Source: Synechococcus sp. CO36386bin_29 (GTDB lineage: Bacteria > Cyanobacteriota > Cyanobacteriia > PCC-6307 > Cyanobiaceae). Taken from it: a stretch of DNA of 64,000 nucleotides. Where the stretch lies: NCBI GenBank assembly GCA_011523835.1, contig WTFZ01000051.1, positions 1-64,000 of the forward strand, written 5' to 3'. A program made the translations under genes and the position numbers. Below, piece after piece: positions 20,185 to 34,171 of the stretch; the stretch's first letter is position 1; each line of letters opens with the position of its first letter. The notes beneath the pieces were generated by a model. That model searched no databases and was not told the DNA's origin. It saw only the letters and a program-made list of their open reading frames with translations.

Positions 20185-22629
20185 CTACTGCTCTTGGTTC
20201 AGCGCTTCACGCATCATTCGCTCGACTCGTTCCTGCACGGATTCGTTGGTCATCCGGTTGTTCAAGCGTTCCACCAGTAGGGGAAAGGCAAGTGGCCCTG
20301 GACGCGGCGTGGGGCAATGCAGGGTGTCGCCATTGCGTATTCGTTGTAAAGCGGATCGCAGGCGAGGGAGCTCGAGCTGCTCCTGCATTACTTCGTCTCT
20401 AGCCTGCCGAAGCAGAAGGTTGTTGGGCTCGTGCTTGCTGAACACGTCCCAAAGAAGAGAACCGCTGATCTGCAGTTGGCCGGTGGATTTGTTCTGCCCA
20501 GGGAATCCCTGCACCAACAGGCCGGCCACCTGGGCAATGCTGCGAAACCGGCGTTTGCAGAGTTCCGAGAGGTTCAACGCCTGCTCGAGATCCCTCTCCA
20601 GCGCTGCGTCATCCAGCAGCTCATCGAGATGGTCCTCCAGAAGCTGGTCCATGGGGTACCCCCTGGGTGCCAGCAGTTCAAATCCGTAATCGTTCACTGA
20701 CACGGTGATCGTTCCCCGTTGCACCCGTGTCAGTCGCGTCGCCCAGAGAAAGCCGAGACCTTCATGCACGAACCGGCCTTCAAAGGGATAGGCGTAAAGA
20801 TGCATGCCCTCCCGCGTTCGGCACGTTTCAATCAGCAGCTGGTTGCTTTCCGGAAGAGTGGAGAGATCCATTTGCCGTGCAAAGAGAGGTTCAAGAGCCT
20901 TGAGTTCCGGGGTGTCGAGCTCTCCCCGCCCGGCTCGGGCGACCTCTTCTCGGAGATGATGGGTCAGTAGATCGGACAGCGACATCTGCCCGCCGGCCCA
21001 GGCGGGCACTGCGGTGCTCTTTTTGGTGGTGTTTTTCACATAAGCCGTCATTTCCCGCAGACGCACAAACTCCAGCTGGCGTCCGGCAAAGAAAAACACA
21101 TCCTTGGGTTTCAGCTGGCTGATGAAATTTTCTTCGACATGGCCGAGCACCGAACCGCGCACAAAGCGCACGCGGATTGATGGAGCGGAGGTGATCGTGC
21201 CGATGTTGAAGCGGTGCAGCCTGGCTATGGCGCTTTCACGAACCACAAAACGACCGTCGTCGGTAGCTTCCAATTTCCGGTAGCGGGGATACGCCCCGAG
21301 GCAATCGCCTCCTTTCTCGAGAAAGCGAAGGCACCACTGCCAATCGCTGTCGCTGAGTTGTCGGTAGCTGGCCGTGGTGCGAATTGCCTCCAAGGTTGAT
21401 TCAGGCTTGAAGCCAGGTCCGCAGGCGAGGGTCGTGAGGTGCTGCAACAGCACATCCAGGGGTGCCCGGGGCGGGCGTCGTTCCTCCACCAGACCGTCGT
21501 CCAGTCCGCGGCGTACGGCACTGAGTTCAAGTAGTTCCAGGGCGTTGGTCGGCATGAACAGCACTTTTGAGGTGCCTCCCGGAAGGTGGGCCGAGCGCCC
21601 GGCTCTCTGTAGCAGGCGGGCCAGATTCTTGGGAGAGCCGATCTGCACCACCTGTTCAACTGGCTGGAAATCAACTCCCAGATCCAGGGAGCTGGTGCAG
21701 ACGACCCAAAGCATGGTCCCAGATTTCACGGAGGCTTCAATCGCCTCGCGTTCGCTCCGATCCAAAGCGCTGTGATGGAGAGCCAGCAGTCCCTCCATCT
21801 CAGGGCAGGCATAGCGCAGGCACTGAAACCAGCGTTCCGCCTGGTTGCGGGTGTTGGTGAACAGCAGCGTGCTGGTGGTGGGAATCAAAGATCCCACCAG
21901 GTCTTCGTAGCGCCTGAGGCCGAGATGCCCTCCCCAGGGAAAGCCGTCAATGCTGTCAGGGAGGATGCTGCTCACGCTTAGTCCCCGCTTCGGGGCACCG
22001 GTGATCAGACAGGGTTCACAACGGCCTCCAAGGGCATGCCGTGCCGATTCCTCCAGATTGCCGATGGTGGCGCTGATCGCCCAGGTCTGTAGCCCGGGGC
22101 GTTGTTGTCGCAACCAACTGAGTGCCAGCTCTGCCTGAATCCCTCGCTTGCTGCCGATCAGTTCGTGCCATTCATCGAGGATGACAGTGTCGAGGGTCTG
22201 AAACAGGTGCTCGCAGTGGCGACCAGCCAGAAGCACGCAGAGCGACTCGGGCGTGGTGATCAGAATTTCCGGGGGCGATTTGATCTGGCGTGAGCGTTCA
22301 GCCGTTGGCGTGTCTCCATTGCGGATGGCGACCCTCAAAGGCCATTGCATGGCGGCAATCGGTTGTTGAATCGCCAGCGCGAGATCACGGCTCAGGGCGC
22401 GTAGGGGCGTGATGTAGAGCATCCGAACGCCCTTCTGCGCAGAGGGTGTCTGAAGCATGCGGGCGATTGAGCCCATCACGGCGGCATAGGTCTTGCCAGA
22501 CCCGGTGGGGACCTGGATTAGTCCACTTTGACCGTTCAGGTGAGCGTTCCAGGCCCTTCGCTGGAACGGCATGGGCGTCCAGCCTTGAAGCGCGAACCAG
22601 CTCTCAATGGGGATCAGGGAATCAGTCAG
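20185..22629 (-). CDS. Ligase-associated DEXH-box helicase (Lhr-Core type)
   Basis: Large superfamily 2 helicase: Walker A VPTGSGKTYAAVM, motif Ia YITPLRALSRDLALAI, DEWH box (TVILDEWHELIGS), SAT motif (WAISATIGNLEE), motif IV/V (LLFTNTRNQAERW, CTSSLDLGVDFQPVEQVVQI) and VI (RLLQRAGRSAHLPGG), then the winged-helix and Lhr-specific C-terminal regions. It belongs to the ligase-associated DNA repair set; partners are at 8, 26 and 28 kb. The first ATG (22572, 795 aa) cuts off the conserved SWFALQGWTPMPFQ start; the frame stays open upstream without ATG/GTG/TTG to CTG 22629, which overlaps the DUF350 stop as CTGA. I take that as the likely start. Confidence 0.9.
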   Translation of the reverse strand: MTDSLIPIESWFALQGWTPMPFQRRAWNAHLNGQSGLIQVPTGSGKTYAAVMGSIARMLQTPSAQKGVRMLYITPLRALSRDLALAIQQPIAAMQWPLRVAIRNGDTPTAERSRQIKSPPEILITTPESLCVLLAGRHCEHLFQTLDTVILDEWHELIGSKRGIQAELALSWLRQQRPGLQTWAISATIGNLEESARHALGGRCEPCLITGAPKRGLSVSSILPDSIDGFPWGGHLGLRRYEDLVGSLIPTTSTLLFTNTRNQAERWFQCLRYACPEMEGLLALHHSALDRSEREAIEASVKSGTMLWVVCTSSLDLGVDFQPVEQVVQIGSPKNLARLLQRAGRSAHLPGGTSKVLFMPTNALELLELSAVRRGLDDGLVEERRPPRAPLDVLLQHLTTLACGPGFKPESTLEAIRTTASYRQLSDSDWQWCLRFLEKGGDCLGAYPRYRKLEATDDGRFVVRESAIARLHRFNIGTITSAPSIRVRFVRGSVLGHVEENFISQLKPKDVFFFAGRQLEFVRLREMTAYVKNTTKKSTAVPAWAGGQMSLSDLLTHHLREEVARAGRGELDTPELKALEPLFARQMDLSTLPESNQLLIETCRTREGMHLYAYPFEGRFVHEGLGFLWATRLTRVQRGTITVSVNDYGFELLAPRGYPMDQLLEDHLDELLDDAALERDLEQALNLSELCKRRFRSIAQVAGLLVQGFPGQNKSTGQLQISGSLLWDVFSKHEPNNLLLRQARDEVMQEQLELPRLRSALQRIRNGDTLHCPTPRPGPLAFPLLVERLNNRMTNESVQERVERMMREALNQEQ

Positions 22630-22835
22630 ATCAGAATCACGGTGACGACAACAGCAGTCACGGCCAGAACAACAGCTGCGACAACGATGCCCGCAGCAAC
22701 GTTCCCTTTACGAATTTCGCCTCGGTAATCAAGAGGCGTCAAGCGGTCAAACAACCAGACCCCTCCAGCAATCAGCAACACCCCAGCAACAGTCCACAGC
22801 AGACTGAGCATGAGCTGGGCGATCGGTCCCTGCAT
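22626..22835 (-). CDS. DUF350 family small membrane protein
   Basis: 69 residues with two membrane spans: LMLSLLWTVAGVLLIAGGVWLF, then the conserved loop DRLTPLDYRGEIRKGNVAAG, and GIVVAAVVLAVTAVVVTVIL. The spacing and the D..TP...ei..GN.A.gi pattern fit DUF350 (half of the four-span E. coli YjfL type). DUF350 genes recur beside spermidine-synthase-like and DUF4178 genes; here those follow divergently at 24-26 kb. Its stop overlaps the likely helicase start, so the helicase may be translated by coupling to this gene. Confidence 0.85.
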   Translation of the reverse strand: MQGPIAQLMLSLLWTVAGVLLIAGGVWLFDRLTPLDYRGEIRKGNVAAGIVVAAVVLAVTAVVVTVILI

Positions 22836-22893: not shown

Positions 22894-23883
22894 ATGCAGC
22901 AGACAGTGACGCATCGTTCGTCAGAGGTTTCTCAGTTAAAGGCACCAGATGCATCGCTAACTTGCTGGCCCTTACTGGTTCTGATCATTCCGATCGGTCT
23001 CTTCGTGGCTTCTTTTTTCGATCGGAGCTCCACAGTCACGAAGCTGACGATGCCACTCACCAGTGCTGGACAGCCAGTGGTGTCTAAACCGTTTCAGCTT
23101 CCAAGCGTTAATGATCGTGTTTCGATCTCGACGGAATTTTCCGTTCCTCGGGACAGGGTTGTTTTTCTGTCTACAGAGTTGATTGATCATCAGGGAGTCG
23201 TTCAACTGCACTACGACAAGGAGGGTATTGCTCCCTCTAGTAATTCAGAATTTCTCGCGTTTCGGCCCAGTAAAGCCGGACTTTATCGATTACGTTATGA
23301 GGCTTATCTGCCCAGGGATCTGCAGGGACAGCCCGCGAATCTTAATGCGCCTGTTGTTGTCAAAAGTGTGATCACCAATGATCCCTTTGATGCTGGAATG
23401 CTCTTCAGCGGCTTCCTGGCGTCGTTCATCGTTAGTTTTTTGTATCTTTCACGGGTTTATTTCCGTGGAACACTCCAAGCGTCAGGATGGTGTAACAGTG
23501 AAGCCGAAGCGAGGCGCCTGACCCGTGGAGAGTACAGAAGCGGGCTGCTTAGAGTTCGCTTGATGGCAAGGTTTGAATTTTCAAGCCAGCTTTATTCACC
23601 GGAATTCCAGGCGGCAAAACTGGAGATTCTGAACGGATCAGGGCGCTTAGTTTTTCAAGGAATTGTTCCCTGTCGTGTCACACGGGATGATGAAGATTCA
23701 GATGTTTTCACTTTGCGTGCTGAACCACAGCTTTTCCATCTCGTGCAAGACAGTTATTTGCGGTTCGAAATGAGTCTTCCGACAATCCTCACTGATCGCA
23801 ATCCTGAGAGTGTCTGCATTCAGACCTGCGATGAGATTGTTCTTCCCTGGATGAAGAGCGTACGTGCCAGGTTGAATCCATGA
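22894..23883 (+). CDS. Two-span membrane protein of a DUF350/DUF4178 locus, function unknown
   Basis: 329 residues. An N-terminal membrane segment (WPLLVLIIPIGLFVASFF) is followed by an extracytoplasmic beta-rich region (FQLPSVNDRVSISTEFSVPR, YRLRYEAYLPRDLQGQPA), a second span (GMLFSGFLASFIVSFLYL) and a C-terminal cytoplasmic part of about 130 residues (MARFEFSSQLYSPEFQAAKL, DVFTLRAEPQLFHLVQDSY). No family recognised. It heads an operon of four genes with 1-16 base overlaps including the spermidine-synthase-like protein and DUF4178, so it is likely part of that membrane system. Confidence 0.8.
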   Translation: MQQTVTHRSSEVSQLKAPDASLTCWPLLVLIIPIGLFVASFFDRSSTVTKLTMPLTSAGQPVVSKPFQLPSVNDRVSISTEFSVPRDRVVFLSTELIDHQGVVQLHYDKEGIAPSSNSEFLAFRPSKAGLYRLRYEAYLPRDLQGQPANLNAPVVVKSVITNDPFDAGMLFSGFLASFIVSFLYLSRVYFRGTLQASGWCNSEAEARRLTRGEYRSGLLRVRLMARFEFSSQLYSPEFQAAKLEILNGSGRLVFQGIVPCRVTRDDEDSDVFTLRAEPQLFHLVQDSYLRFEMSLPTILTDRNPESVCIQTCDEIVLPWMKSVRARLNP

Positions 23884-24155
23884 TCAAGCATCTTTTGCTG
23901 GCACTGAATGGAGGAATCGCTTTGCTGGCCATCTGTGCAGCGCTGACCAACGACAGCTCACCACAGCTGGGTTCAGGCTTGTTGCCATCGATCGACGGTG
24001 AGTATCGCGGTGCTTTTGTCGGTGGGCGCTGGGTCAACCGCAGCTCCCGGTTGGAAACGAACCGACTTCTCTATTACGGAGGCCATAGCGGTTCGTCTTA
24101 TGGCGGTGGCTATGGCGGCGGTGGCTATGGCGGTGGTGGATGGAGCGGCAAGTAA
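23880..24155 (+). CDS. Small membrane/exported protein with Gly-Tyr-rich C-terminal repeats
   Basis: 91 residues; ATG 23880 overlaps the preceding stop as ATGA. An N-terminal hydrophobic segment (HLLLALNGGIALLAICAAL) works as a signal or anchor, a middle part (YRGAFVGGRWVNRSSRLETN) follows, and the last 25 residues are GGGYGGGGYGGGG-type repeats, encoded by direct repeats of a GGCGGTGGCTAT unit. The final 16 bases overlap the start of the next gene. Glycine-rich tails of this kind occur on proteins of the TPM or DUF350 neighbourhoods; function unknown. Confidence 0.75.
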   Translation: MIKHLLLALNGGIALLAICAALTNDSSPQLGSGLLPSIDGEYRGAFVGGRWVNRSSRLETNRLLYYGGHSGSSYGGGYGGGGYGGGGWSGK

Positions 24156-25729
24156 CCGCTGCTGATCTCAGTCCCGTTCAGGTTCGGGTCCTGCTGGTCA
24201 CAGCCATGGTGTCCTCTGCGGCGGGTCTGACCCTGGAGCTGCTTCTGGTTGCCCAGGCCAGCTACCTGATGGGTGATGCAACCCTCGCCACCGGCGTGGT
24301 TGTCGGCACGTTTCTGGCGTCCATGGGAGTGGGCGCCTGGTTGACCGAATTCATCGGTTTGAAGGGGCAACCACTGGTGCGATTGCTAAGGGCCCTGATG
24401 CTTGTGGAGATCAGCCTCTTCCCGATCTGCCTGCTGGGTCCACTGGCTCTGTTCTGGCTGTTCTCGATCAATGCGCCGCTCTGGTTGGCGACCGTTCTGC
24501 TCACTGTGCTGGTTGGGGTTCTCGGCGGCATGGAGCTACCGCTGATCACACGCATGCTCGAAACCCAGGATCAGTTGCGTCGTGCTCTTGCCAGGGTCCT
24601 GGCTCTTGATTACTTCGGCTCTCTCATCGGCGCACTTGCCTTTCCTCTGGTCTTGCTGCCCTGGTTGGGCCTGCTTCCAACAGCTTCAGTCCTGGCGATT
24701 GTTCCCGTTGGATGCAGTCTGTCGCTGGCTCTGGTTTTCCCGAGCCTGCGTCGGTGGCGCAAACCCCTACTGGCACTGTTCCCCATGGCCACGGTGGCAG
24801 GTGTGCTGATCGCACCTATGGGCGATCGCATCGAGGATCGTTTTTATGGAGCTCGTGTAATTGAGAGGAAGCAGTCGCGGTTTCAACGCATCGTGATGAC
24901 CCGCAGAGGGGCCGATCTTCGGCTTTTTCTCGATGGAGATTTGCAGTTTTCAAGTCTCGATGAATACCGCTATCACGAAGCGTTGGTGCATCCAGCGATG
25001 GCATTGCACCCTGCACCGAGACGCATCCTTCTGATGGGCGCCGGTGATGGTCTGGCCTTGAGGGAAGTTCTGCGTTGGCCTGACGTCGAAACCGTTGATG
25101 TGGTGGAACTTGATCCAGAGGTCATCAAGCTTGCCCGCCGCCAGCCCTTGCTGCGTCGACTCAATGCCGACAGCCTGAGAGATCCAAGGGTTCAGCTTCA
25201 TTTTGGTGATGCCTATGCCCATCTGCGAAGCCATCACAGTCGTTACGACGTTGTGATTGCCGACTTTCCTGATCCGGATACGTTGCCTGTCGCTCGCCTC
25301 TACAGCATTGGTTTCTACCGAATCTTGCGTCAGCGGCTCAATCCGGAGGCAGTCGTGATCACGCAAGCCAGTACGCCCTTTCTTGCACCCCGTGTTCTTG
25401 CTTCGATTGAAGCCGGACTGCGCGGTGTTGGGTTTCATACGCGTCCTTACTCTGTGGCCATACCCAGTTTTGGTCCCTGGGGATTTGTGATCGCCCGGGA
25501 GAATCCATGGACCAATCTCTTCCGAACGATTCCGTTTTCAACCCGCTGGTTGGATGCAGATCAGCTCTCGGCACTGTTCATTTTCTCTCGTGATTTAAGG
25601 CCGGACGCGTCGGAGTCAGTTCAGGCCAATCGAATGACTCGTCCGATTCTGCTTGACTATCTGCGGGACGATCGTCGGCGCCGGTTGCAACAATCCAGTC
25701 CAGTAACTCCTCCGTTTACAAGCTTCTGA
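24140..25729 (+). CDS. Membrane spermidine-synthase-like aminopropyltransferase
   Basis: 529 residues. The first 230 form about seven membrane spans (VTAMVSSAAGLTLELLLVAQ, VVVGTFLASMGVGAWLTEFI, ATVLLTVLVGVLGGMELPLI). The C-terminal half is a spermidine-synthase fold: Q-x-I-V entry (KQSRFQRIVM), FLDGDLQFSSLDEYRYHEAL, the dcAdoMet/SAM loop ILLMGAGDGLALREVL, VVELDPEVIKLAR, DAYAHLR and the catalytic-region Asp in VIADFPDPDTLP. This is the integral-membrane branch of the polyamine synthase family, whose product is not settled. It follows the Gly-rich gene and overlaps the DUF4178 start. Confidence 0.92.
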   Translation: MERQVTAADLSPVQVRVLLVTAMVSSAAGLTLELLLVAQASYLMGDATLATGVVVGTFLASMGVGAWLTEFIGLKGQPLVRLLRALMLVEISLFPICLLGPLALFWLFSINAPLWLATVLLTVLVGVLGGMELPLITRMLETQDQLRRALARVLALDYFGSLIGALAFPLVLLPWLGLLPTASVLAIVPVGCSLSLALVFPSLRRWRKPLLALFPMATVAGVLIAPMGDRIEDRFYGARVIERKQSRFQRIVMTRRGADLRLFLDGDLQFSSLDEYRYHEALVHPAMALHPAPRRILLMGAGDGLALREVLRWPDVETVDVVELDPEVIKLARRQPLLRRLNADSLRDPRVQLHFGDAYAHLRSHHSRYDVVIADFPDPDTLPVARLYSIGFYRILRQRLNPEAVVITQASTPFLAPRVLASIEAGLRGVGFHTRPYSVAIPSFGPWGFVIARENPWTNLFRTIPFSTRWLDADQLSALFIFSRDLRPDASESVQANRMTRPILLDYLRDDRRRRLQQSSPVTPPFTSF

Positions 25730-26334
25730 TGGCGTTTTTGATTTTTCTCTTCGTCGTAATTGCCTTCGTACTCTGGTTGTTGTCTCGCCACAGTATGGGT
25801 CGACGGCATCGGCCTCGGTCTGGTGGTTTGCCCGAACAGCGCACCTTGTTCAATCTTCAGGTGGGCGATGTTGTTCAACATGATTCGCGTGATTGGATTG
25901 TTGAAAACACGCTCGTTTTTGACCAGGGAAACTTCCAGTGGCAGGAGTATTACCTGAGGGATGGTGATGAGGGCGTCTGGCTTGTCGTTGTTGATGACGA
26001 TCGGATCGAACTCTCTTGGATGCACGAAGTCCCCCCGGGAGATGTACCCGTTTTGCCCCCCTTGCAAAATGAGCTTGTTTACAAGGGAATTCGTTATCGA
26101 CTTGTCGAAAATGGTTTTGCCAACTATCGCAAAACATCGCTCGGCAGTCAGCAAGAAGGTCCCTGTCGTTTTTACGACTATGTTGCACCTGTTGATCGTG
26201 TTCTCAGCGTCGAGATTTACTCTGCGACCGGATCTCGAGCCGATGACGGTGAGCTCGAATTGTGCGTCGGAGTTCGCATCACTCCGGAATCCCTCACCTT
26301 GCTTCCAGGAGATGGACGCAATGTCTACCGCTGA
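25729..26334 (+). CDS. DUF4178 domain protein
   Basis: 201 residues with an N-terminal membrane anchor (FLIFLFVVIAFVLWLLS), a basic linker and one DUF4178 domain: FNLQVGDVVQHDSRDWIVEN, WQEYYLRDGDEGVWLVVVDD, ELSWMHEV and a second half beginning LVYKGIRYRLVENGFANY. DUF4178 is regularly found with DUF350 and spermidine-synthase-like membrane proteins, as here; the biochemical role is unknown. The start overlaps the previous stop by one base (TGATG), and the end overlaps the convergent ligase gene by 10 bases. Confidence 0.87.
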   Translation: MAFLIFLFVVIAFVLWLLSRHSMGRRHRPRSGGLPEQRTLFNLQVGDVVQHDSRDWIVENTLVFDQGNFQWQEYYLRDGDEGVWLVVVDDDRIELSWMHEVPPGDVPVLPPLQNELVYKGIRYRLVENGFANYRKTSLGSQQEGPCRFYDYVAPVDRVLSVEIYSATGSRADDGELELCVGVRITPESLTLLPGDGRNVYR

Positions 26335-28028
26335 GGTGAATGATCTTCGTCGCACAAGATCATTGCGTCGGTAATCGCGTTGGCACTTTCAGCCGAACGG
26401 TCCTGGCGCCATCGCAGGATTCTGGGAAATCGAACTGCCAGTCCACATTTATGTCTTTTGGATGGCTGAATTCCTTCGAAACCGATTTCAAACACCAGCT
26501 CCGGGTGCACAGCGCGGGTGGGTCCGAATCGCTCCCGCGTGTTTGAACGAATCCAGCGATCGAGTTCGAGAATCTCCCGGTCGTTCAGGCCGGAGTAAGC
26601 CTTGGCAAAGGTCACGAGTTGATGGTGTTCAGGATCTGACGATCGACGGTCCCACAGTGCAAAGGTGTAATCCGTGAACAGATTGGCCCGGCGTCCACGT
26701 CCCGCCTGCGCGTAGATCAATACCGCATCCAGGGTCATGGGATCTCGCTTGTGTTTCCACCAGGGACCGCGTTTGCGCCCACTCAAGTAGGGGGACTGCA
26801 TCTGTTTCAGCATCAGTCCTTCAGCACCCTCCTGGACGGCCTGATGCCGGAGAGTGTCAAGGGTCTCCCATGCGCTCAGTCTCGCCCCGGCGCTGATGCG
26901 CAGCTGTCCTGCGGATCGTGGCGTGATCATGGGGGAGAGGAGTTCGTTCATCGCGTTCAACCGCTCTTCAAGCGTTCTGCTGCGACGATCCTGTCCTTGG
27001 CTTTCCAGCAGGTCATACGCCACGAAGCAGATCGGGCACTCCTCGCGCAGTTTGCGGCTCACACTCTTGCGTCCCAAACGACGCTGGAGATCACTGAAGG
27101 GCTGGGGCCGATTCGCATCAACTCTCCAGCAGATCACTTCGCCATCGAGAACAGTGTCATCCGGAAGGGAATCCGCCATCTCGATCAGTTCAGGAAACTG
27201 TTCATTGATCAGTTCCTCCCCACGACTCCAGAGATATGTTCCGGATTCGCGCTTGATCAGCTGACCCCGGATCCCATCCCATTTGTGTTCCACCCACCAG
27301 TCCTGGGCTGGAGTGTCCCGAAGGGTGTCGCTCTGAAGGGGGCTGGCCAGAAAGAAGGGATAGGGGACCGGTCCACGATTGACCCGCTCCGCTGCAGGTG
27401 CTGCCGTCAGTCCTTCAAACCAGCACTGCGACGGCTCCTGGGGTGCCATCAACCGTTCCAGGACTAAAGCCTCCTCGAGCGCAAACCCCTTGGCGATCGC
27501 TTTGACCACCAGACCTCTGGCAACTCCGATGCGGAAGCCTCCGGTAAGCAGCTTGTTGAACAGAAAATGGCGCTCGTCGGGAAGGGTGCTCCAGATCGTG
27601 AGCAGAGCGGCGCTCTGGAGCTGGGGTTCAAGTGCAGCCAGCGCTGGTAGCAGTTGTTCCATCCACCAATGCAGTGGTGGATGGGTCTCAATTGTGCTGA
27701 TCCATTGCTTCAGCGTGGGATCAACCGACTGTGGCGGGATCGCCCCCTTGAGCTGCGGCCAAAGCAGGGCCAGCGTTTCAGCGGAATCACCGACATGACT
27801 CTGGCAATCCTCGAAGAGCCAGTCGGGGATGGCGTCGCAGGCCTGAAGAACGTCCCGAAGTCGGCGACCGGTCATCAATCGCCTTCGCTTTTCGCCCATG
27901 AGCAGCAACGTGCTCCAGGCGTTGTCGTGGGCGTCGCCGGCGTGCAGATGCTCGGCGATCAGGTCAACCTTGCGCGTCGTGCCTGTGGATTGATCCAGGC
28001 TGTCAATCAACGTGGCAAAGGTCTCCAT
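26325..28028 (-). CDS. ATP-dependent DNA ligase of the ligase-associated repair set
   Basis: 567 residues: N-terminal DNA-binding domain (residues 1-200; LLMGEKRRRLMTGRRLRDVL, FLFNKLLTGGFRIGVARGLV), nucleotidyltransferase domain with motif I EHKWDGIRGQLIKR (Lys nucleophile), motif III FVAYDLLE, motif IV EGLMLKQ, motif V WWKHKRDPMTLDAVLIYAQ, and C-terminal OB domain ending in RFPRILRWRQDRS. This is the bacterial ligase type that co-occurs with the Lhr-like helicase, PdeM and MBL-fold exonuclease. It lies in the same direction as the exonuclease, separated by one small exported-protein gene. Confidence 0.93.
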   Translation of the reverse strand: METFATLIDSLDQSTGTTRKVDLIAEHLHAGDAHDNAWSTLLLMGEKRRRLMTGRRLRDVLQACDAIPDWLFEDCQSHVGDSAETLALLWPQLKGAIPPQSVDPTLKQWISTIETHPPLHWWMEQLLPALAALEPQLQSAALLTIWSTLPDERHFLFNKLLTGGFRIGVARGLVVKAIAKGFALEEALVLERLMAPQEPSQCWFEGLTAAPAAERVNRGPVPYPFFLASPLQSDTLRDTPAQDWWVEHKWDGIRGQLIKRESGTYLWSRGEELINEQFPELIEMADSLPDDTVLDGEVICWRVDANRPQPFSDLQRRLGRKSVSRKLREECPICFVAYDLLESQGQDRRSRTLEERLNAMNELLSPMITPRSAGQLRISAGARLSAWETLDTLRHQAVQEGAEGLMLKQMQSPYLSGRKRGPWWKHKRDPMTLDAVLIYAQAGRGRRANLFTDYTFALWDRRSSDPEHHQLVTFAKAYSGLNDREILELDRWIRSNTRERFGPTRAVHPELVFEIGFEGIQPSKRHKCGLAVRFPRILRWRQDRSAESANAITDAMILCDEDHSPQR

Positions 28029-33361: not shown

Positions 33362-34171
33362 CTACTCGTTTGACTCGCTCAAGCGACGCCCAACTGTCGC
33401 TTGCGCAATCAAATAGGCGCCAATGGCCCCTCCGATGAATCCCATGCCGTTGCGAATCAGCGGCAGGAGTTCGCTGGTACGTGTCACAACGGGAGCAATC
33501 CCGAACACACCAAACAGCATGATCCAAAGAGGAGACAGAAGCAGTAACCAAGCCCAAGCGACGCGCTCCCCCTCCTTGCGTGGATAGGCAGCAAAGCCTG
33601 CAATCAACCCGCCAAGCACAGAAGTGCTGAGGGTCCAGAGCCATTGCTCGGTGGGCAGACCTGGAACCACCTGGCAACCGCCGCGATCCAGACAGAGCTC
33701 CACCGCATCAATCGCAGCAAGCAGTGCGCCATCCTCTCCATGGTCGCGCACGTAATACTGATTGCCGTAGCGGGTCTGCAATTCGACCCACCAGGTGCGG
33801 GGCATCAGCGCGAAGAACGCATCGCCCACGTTGAAATTGAGGAGGTTGCCTCCCCGAGGGTCTCCCACCATCAGCAAGCTGCGCTCATCGAGTCCCCAGA
33901 AGTCCTTCACGGCCAGCCCGGGAGTGCGTTCGTACTGGGTCAGCACTCTGATCTTCCAGCCGCTGCGTTGTTCGAAGGCATCCAAAGACACTTCAAGAGA
34001 CTGCAGCTCCTTCGTACTGAAAACCCTGGCCAGATCAATCACGGGGGTTGGGTGATCCGGAAGCAGTTCAGGGTTGTCGCTGGCCTGGACGGGGGATGCC
34101 AGCAGTAGCAACAGAGGCAGGCTCAGGAGTGCCGCCCAGCGACAGAGTGTTCGGCGGAAGCCCATGATCAT
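33362..34171 (-). CDS. psb32: TPM-domain photosystem II repair protein, Psb32-like
   Basis: 269 residues. Signal peptide (CRWAALLSLPLLLLLASPVQA), then a TPM domain (TPVIDLARVFSTKELQSLEV, WKIRVLTQYERTPGLAVKDF, ERSLLMVGDPRGGNLLNFNV), and C-terminal membrane spans (TLSTSVLGGLIAGFAAY, WAWLLLLSPLWIMLFGVFGI, GMGFIGGAIGAYLIAQ). This layout matches cyanobacterial Psb32/plant TLP18.3, which protect and help repair photosystem II in the thylakoid lumen. Convergent with the lysozyme-like gene. Confidence 0.87.
   Translation of the reverse strand: MIMGFRRTLCRWAALLSLPLLLLLASPVQASDNPELLPDHPTPVIDLARVFSTKELQSLEVSLDAFEQRSGWKIRVLTQYERTPGLAVKDFWGLDERSLLMVGDPRGGNLLNFNVGDAFFALMPRTWWVELQTRYGNQYYVRDHGEDGALLAAIDAVELCLDRGGCQVVPGLPTEQWLWTLSTSVLGGLIAGFAAYPRKEGERVAWAWLLLLSPLWIMLFGVFGIAPVVTRTSELLPLIRNGMGFIGGAIGAYLIAQATVGRRLSESNE

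Follow-up and report, generated by a model that had tools for sequence, protein, structure and literature searches.

Our analysis of a 64,000-nucleotide stretch of Synechococcus sp. DNA (hereafter referred to as the window) indicates that a ligase-associated DEXH helicase encoded on its minus strand initiates translation at a CTG codon (CTG 22629), a conclusion that is well supported by comparison with related genomes. This codon overlaps the stop codon of a gene for a DUF350 membrane protein, and we consider it highly probable that fMet-tRNA initiates the helicase there, on the DUF350 stop, and likely that this occurs by re-initiation after translation of DUF350. Why CUG is nearly absent as a bacterial start codon is regarded as an open question (PMC11497404), and only two of 61,358 AUG starts were found to have switched to CUG (Belinky et al.; PMC5622118). 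If the lineage keeps a whole set of CTG-initiated genes, as further cases below suggest, CUG would function there as a start codon and be retained in different species and genera.

The helicase gene and its CTG codon

The helicase scores 1071.8 bits against the NCBIfam equivalog model TIGR04121 (curated cut-off 850), its residues 8-809 covering positions 3-802 of the 804-position profile, and it contains the Pfam domains DEAD, Helicase_C, WH_Lhr and DEAD_assoc. Score and full profile coverage make it a member of this family. Since the match starts at residue 8, and hence 12 residues before the first in-frame ATG (ATG 22572, residue 20), most of the segment PIESWFALQGWTP belongs to the family while lying 5' of that ATG; sequence similarity to Lhr helicases of solved structure (5v9x, 7lhl) sets in at residue 10. 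The protein shares the domain architecture of Lhr-Core/TIGR04121 helicases and, in most relatives, the adjacent ATP-dependent DNA ligase. In the window this ligase gene is found 3.7 kb upstream on the same strand; unlike in the usual ligase-TIGR04121 pair, the two genes are separated by a DUF350/Spermine_synth cassette that also supplies the overlapping stop codon (Table 1).

On the minus strand, the junction reads ...GTG ATT CTG ATC TGA CTG ATT...; TGA 22628-22626 terminates DUF350, and the helicase frame continues from CTG 22629 as CTG ACT GAT TCC CTG ATC CCC ATT GAG AGC TGG TTC ... CCC ATG CCG. This frame is open from position 22707 (residue -25) onward, and from the preceding in-frame stop to ATG 22572 it contains no ATG, GTG or TTG. 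The near-cognate codons in this interval are CTG1, CTG5, ATC6, ATT8, an ACG at residue 18 and a distant AGG. A scan for promoters and terminators detected nothing.

We examined 31 genomes of the genus set, including the window's own, and found the helicase in 27 of them as a single copy each. Seven carry CTG at residue 1 (G000, which is the window, G004, G006, G009, G010 [Synechococcus WH7803], G022 and G026), and the N-terminus is conserved in all seven as well. In the six that possess DUF350, the CTG overlaps its TGA; the conservation of these six codons is thus partly that of the stop with which they share TG. A TTG, ATG or GTG start would arise through a single synonymous change of the final DUF350 codon (ATC to ATT or ATA; GTC to GTA, GTG or GTT), and such a change is present in none of the genomes, a finding to be read with the caveat that the third base is invariant anyway in five of the 16 I/V codons of the DUF350 gene. 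Two genomes, G004 and G022, have CTT in place of ATG at residue 20. Their next canonical codons are TTG37 and GTG51, respectively, the latter past the Walker A motif TGSGKT, and both positions fall within the conserved helicase core. The helicase therefore has the properties of a CUG-initiated gene: no usable canonical start, and conserved coding sequence 5' of all canonical codons.

The pattern of substitutions points to the same codon. Among the seven genomes, the ratio of non-synonymous to synonymous polymorphism (pN/pS) for residues 2-19 is 0.33 in the helicase frame, against 2.3 and 1.9 in the two shifted frames; it amounts to 0.22 for residues 9-19 and to 0.16 for residues 20-200. Over approximately 18 codons 5' of the CTG, the DUF350 frame gives a ratio of 0.17 and the helicase frame one of 5.5. 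The selectively protected frame switches at CTGA. Residues 2-8 taken alone are less conserved, so that pN/pS by itself cannot tell whether translation starts at CTG1 or a few codons further downstream. This distinction is provided by Leu5 and Pro7, which most of the family conserves, even where an ATG lies upstream; coding must hence begin before them.

An earlier note on this DNA had proposed that CTG 22629 overlaps the DUF350 stop as CTGA, that no ATG, GTG or TTG lies in frame 5' of ATG 22572, and that the conserved N-terminus of the helicase is encoded upstream of this ATG. All three proposals are borne out by the minus-strand reading and the family match, and the junction, whose conservation among related helicases the note had left to be checked, proved to be conserved, with CTG in seven of seven genomes of the group and CTGA on the DUF350 stop in six.

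Table 1. Positions of the helicase gene, its neighbors and further genes with proposed CTG starts. Coordinates without a prefix refer to the window.
Feature	Position	Strand	Remarks
Ligase-associated DEXH helicase (TIGR04121, Lhr-Core type)	20185..22629	-	814 aa from CTG 22629; profile matches
Proposed helicase CTG start codon (residue 1)	22627..22629	-	CTGA overlap with DUF350 stop; kept in 7/7 genomes; coding-frame switch point
First in-frame ATG of the helicase (residue 20)	22570..22572	-	rejected as start; CTT in G004 and G022
DUF350 membrane-protein gene	22626..22835	-	69 aa; PF03994, 48.3 bits; stop TGA 22628-22626
Rest of inserted cassette	22894..26334	+	four ORFs: 22894-23883, 23880-24155, 24140-25729 (Spermine_synth), 25729-26334
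ATP-dependent DNA ligase	26325..28028	-	usual upstream partner of the helicase
Metallophosphoesterase TIGR04168	30408..31268	+	probably also CTG-initiated (CTG 30408), as the second such gene in the window
hisH of WH7803	L092:7705-8361		trxA-hisH CTGA overlap
recR	L146:1690-2289 (WH7803), L155-L179		start CTG AGC GGC or close variant, 25/25 genomes

Overlap with the upstream stop codon and the mode of initiation

To place the junction in the context of the family, we inspected by hand 30 orthologues that have, no more than 120 nt upstream, the end of an ORF of 290 codons or more on the same strand (mostly the DNA ligase). In 27 of them, the helicase frame has an ATG, GTG or TTG that forms an NTGA with the stop of this ORF; the exceptions are L005, L032 (which has TGATG) and L054. 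The start of the helicase shifts together with the upstream stop across the orthologues, and we regard CTGA as the fourth member of the ATGA/GTGA/TTGA series at this junction. In the orthologues L009-L052, the ligase-helicase junction drifts by tens of codons with the 4-nt overlap retained, and the N-terminal tails of the helicases consequently vary in length between clades.

Termination-reinitiation pairs of the NTGA type (-4 nt; ATGA, GTGA), as described in PMC10666635, have the same four-base stop/start overlap on one strand, which is present as CTGA in six of our genomes. The start codon is CTG in all seven, and in the portion of that source on which we draw, CTG does not appear among the -4 overlaps; the helicase junction is therefore a CTG variant and not a plain member of this class. 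Canonical pairs occur in the DNA that we sampled (23 ATGA, 11 GTGA and 8 TTGA, with four of these 42 inside the window), in keeping with the many ATGA and GTGA overlaps to which the earlier note had likened the helicase junction. A crude count of all NTGA pairs was discarded as evidence for CTG starts: 30 of 72 pairs were CTGA, and since nearly all of these have a canonical start close by (CTGATG and the like), CTGA alone is no evidence.

The upstream partner of the helicase in most relatives is the ligase, which adjoins it in the genomes that lack DUF350, including G009 and a clade with GTG starts. DUF350 orthologues lie directly 5' of the helicase in G004, G006, G010, G022 and G026. In the helicase tree, the GTG clade (G001, G002, G011, G016, G017 and G025) falls within the CTG genomes with a support of 99/92, and the shortest path from the window leads to G009. 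The GTG clade starts at a GTGA on the ligase stop, 17 codons upstream of the old CTG position, and this CTG has become CCG or CAA in four of its six genomes, whereas it is kept in all seven genomes without an upstream canonical start. The simplest reading of this distribution would be a single insertion of the DUF350 cassette between ligase and helicase, followed by its loss in G009 and in the GTG clade; the insertion would probably have turned an ancestral NTGA overlap with the ligase stop into the CTGA overlap with the DUF350 stop. G009 keeps the same CTG behind the ligase gene and a 13-codon mini-ORF (MIDDVAVGRVVLI; L005:1463-1503), whose ATG overlaps the ligase TGA (ATGA) and whose TGA overlaps the CTG (CTGA). 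This mini-ORF may hold the terminating ribosome at the CTG, or it could have arisen by chance. Since G009 lacks DUF350 and the ligase is the partner in most relatives, DUF350 looks like an inserted, exchangeable neighbor that happens to supply a terminating ribosome. Cyanobium-like genomes possess a separate DUF350-helicase neighborhood with a TTG or GTG start, perhaps of independent origin.

How would a ribosome come to use this codon? A ribosome terminating at the DUF350 TGA would shift back and re-initiate on the overlapping CTG, an event that would spare the helicase gene a Shine-Dalgarno site. We infer this likely coupling to DUF350 translation from the geometry of the junction, from the lack of any Shine-Dalgarno match above 4 nt in front of the CTG, and from what PMC10666635 reports on such gene pairs: in H. 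volcanii, -4 overlaps far outnumber every other configuration, re-initiation drops steeply with distance in both H. volcanii and E. coli, and the last 15 nt of the upstream gene are enough for termination-reinitiation. Re-initiation at non-canonical codons has also been described in a eukaryotic system (PMC4648390), which we do not take as support. It is possible, though less likely, that the 30S subunit instead binds the CTG de novo and that the overlap reflects mere compact packing of the genes. Such binding would account for the conserved CTG starts of recR, hrpB and a phosphoesterase gene, which have no gene stop in an overlap and for which coupling is thus unnecessary in this lineage, and for the retention of the helicase CTG in G009; against it stand the lack of a Shine-Dalgarno match exceeding 4 nt and the way in which the helicase start tracks the upstream stop as NTGA through the family. 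Of the earlier note's view that the helicase arises by stop-start re-initiation on a non-AUG codon, the CTG start is thus strongly supported by its conservation, by the frame switch, by the lack of a canonical alternative in G004 and G022 and by the family-wide NTGA geometry, and re-initiation fits this geometry. Its further suggestion, a functional link between helicase synthesis and the membrane-protein gene, would be no more than a possibility; the closest relative, G009, keeps the CTG with no DUF350 upstream.

The efficiency reported for CUG is low. It attains 0.86% of AUG expression in E. coli (PMC11497404), and neither E. coli nor tobacco chloroplasts produced GUS from a CUG start (PMC9845219). 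According to one proposal, U33 of the initiator tRNA pairs with an adenine that follows the start codon (PMC9841429), and such pairing may aid initiation at the helicase CTG; an A follows seven of the eight CTG starts that we examined, including three in which no gene stop forces it. The anticodon stem-loop of the initiator tRNA has the standard sequence in all eight genomes tested; hence, no change of the tRNA in this region explains the use of CUG, and nothing suggests relaxed start selection. The presumed reading by the initiator tRNA, here with a standard stem-loop, is the same as for the rare annotated CUG starts of other bacteria (PMC11497404; PMC9845219). A weak CTG codon might serve to keep a DNA-repair helicase scarce.

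Other possible starts of the helicase

A start at another nearby near-cognate codon (CTG5, ATC6 or ATT/ATC8) is improbable. CTG5, ATC6 and ATT8 do occur in the window, within the less conserved part of the N-terminal tail. However, CTG5 is CTT in G004 and G022, where CTG1 is the sole near-cognate from residue -19 to residue 7, and the only near-cognate codon common to all seven genomes 5' of the conserved residue 5 is the CTG. The family-wide conservation of Leu5 and Pro7 noted above puts the beginning of coding earlier than any of these codons, and four distant cyanobacteria (L060, L062, L069 and L071) have an ATG exactly at the position of CTG1.

We consider it very improbable that the helicase starts at ATG 22572 and that the 19 codons upstream of it remain untranslated. 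In five of the seven genomes, no canonical codon precedes this ATG, and a protein initiated there would retain the Q-motif glutamine (residue 23). Yet G004 and G022, with CTT at this position, would have no canonical codon until residue 37 or 51, and residues 2-19 evolve as protein, fit the family model and, from residue 10 onward, align with Lhr structures. In much of the family, Met or Leu at residue 20 is an internal position of the motif W-x-P-[LM]-P-F-Q. A DUF350-helicase fusion made by -1 frameshifting before the DUF350 stop is hardly credible, even with the helicase frame open for 25-38 codons upstream in several genomes, given that no obvious slippery heptamer precedes this stop, that the helicase frame 5' of the CTG is unconstrained and that G009 has no DUF350. 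Initiation at CTG 22629 is accordingly the reading that we retain.

Conserved CTG starts elsewhere in the lineage

We searched for further CTG starts with a codon-usage scan of forty 20-kb stretches of the WH7803 genome (800 kb of 2.37 Mb) and of the window, from which candidates were chosen by eye; a first codon-score list was dominated by antisense ORFs and was replaced by a second one. At least five CTG genes were found among approximately 700 scored ORFs, or about 0.7%, a rough lower bound that pertains to about one third of WH7803; the reported share of CUG among bacterial start codons is 0.024% (PMC11497404). In comparison with the rare CUG starts annotated elsewhere, those described here are conserved across species and recur in one lineage, with at least five genes in 800 kb. 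Our search of open-licence literature yielded no report of CTG starts in marine Synechococcus.

The scan turned up further genes whose conserved coding sequence extends 5' of all canonical codons. Among the CTG starts that we found, that of recR is the most widely conserved: all 25 genomes compared, drawn from five genera, carry it, and several of them have no canonical codon among the first 25; the stretch from the upstream stop to the CTG varies freely. In five genomes, hisH overlaps the trxA stop as CTGA; in four of these, no further canonical codon occurs before the ATG inside the IDYGMGN motif. The gene for a ThiO-like oxidase has a CTG start in 21 of 24 genomes, hrpB in four, and a lipoprotein gene in five, with CTGA three codons further on in six more. 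In the phosphoesterase TIGR04168, CTG is found in most relatives, seven of which have no other start 5' of the catalytic motif; the GDLHGDW motif is located 5' of every canonical start, and pN/pS is 0.09 over the 18 codons 5' of the first canonical codon. Counted from the CTG, the family-model matches begin at residue 10 in HisH, residue 4 in RecR and residue 5 in HrpB. A comparative pN/pS test agrees for the phosphoesterase, the helicase, recR, the ThiO-like oxidase and hisH, with the reservation that part of the comparison stretches had been selected for the presence of these genes.

Taken as a group, these cases make it fairly likely that marine Synechococcus and its near relatives keep a set of CTG-initiated genes comprising about 0.5-1% of their genes, roughly half of them overlapping an upstream gene as CTGA; the helicase, hisH, recR, the ThiO-like oxidase, the lipoprotein, the phosphoesterase and hrpB would belong to it. 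Such a conserved class is of greater interest than the helicase itself. Genes such as recR and hisH would represent natural contexts in which CUG must work, and relatives with ATG, GTG or TTG at the same junction provide built-in controls. Start searches limited to ATG, GTG and TTG would miss the class and report truncated or wrong N-termini for its members.

Conserved stretches 5' of the first canonical codon were also seen at 34168 and 2581 in the window, on the minus strands of L146 and L092, and in L154 and L151; we did not count them, since they may be due to an overlapping frame or to a canonical start close by. In another ORF of the window (6028-4553, minus strand), the first ATG is preceded by 11 codons that show protein-like evolution, with 17 synonymous changes against one non-synonymous change and a pN/pS of 0.03 in four relatives, and an in-frame TAA is followed directly by CTG in all five genomes.
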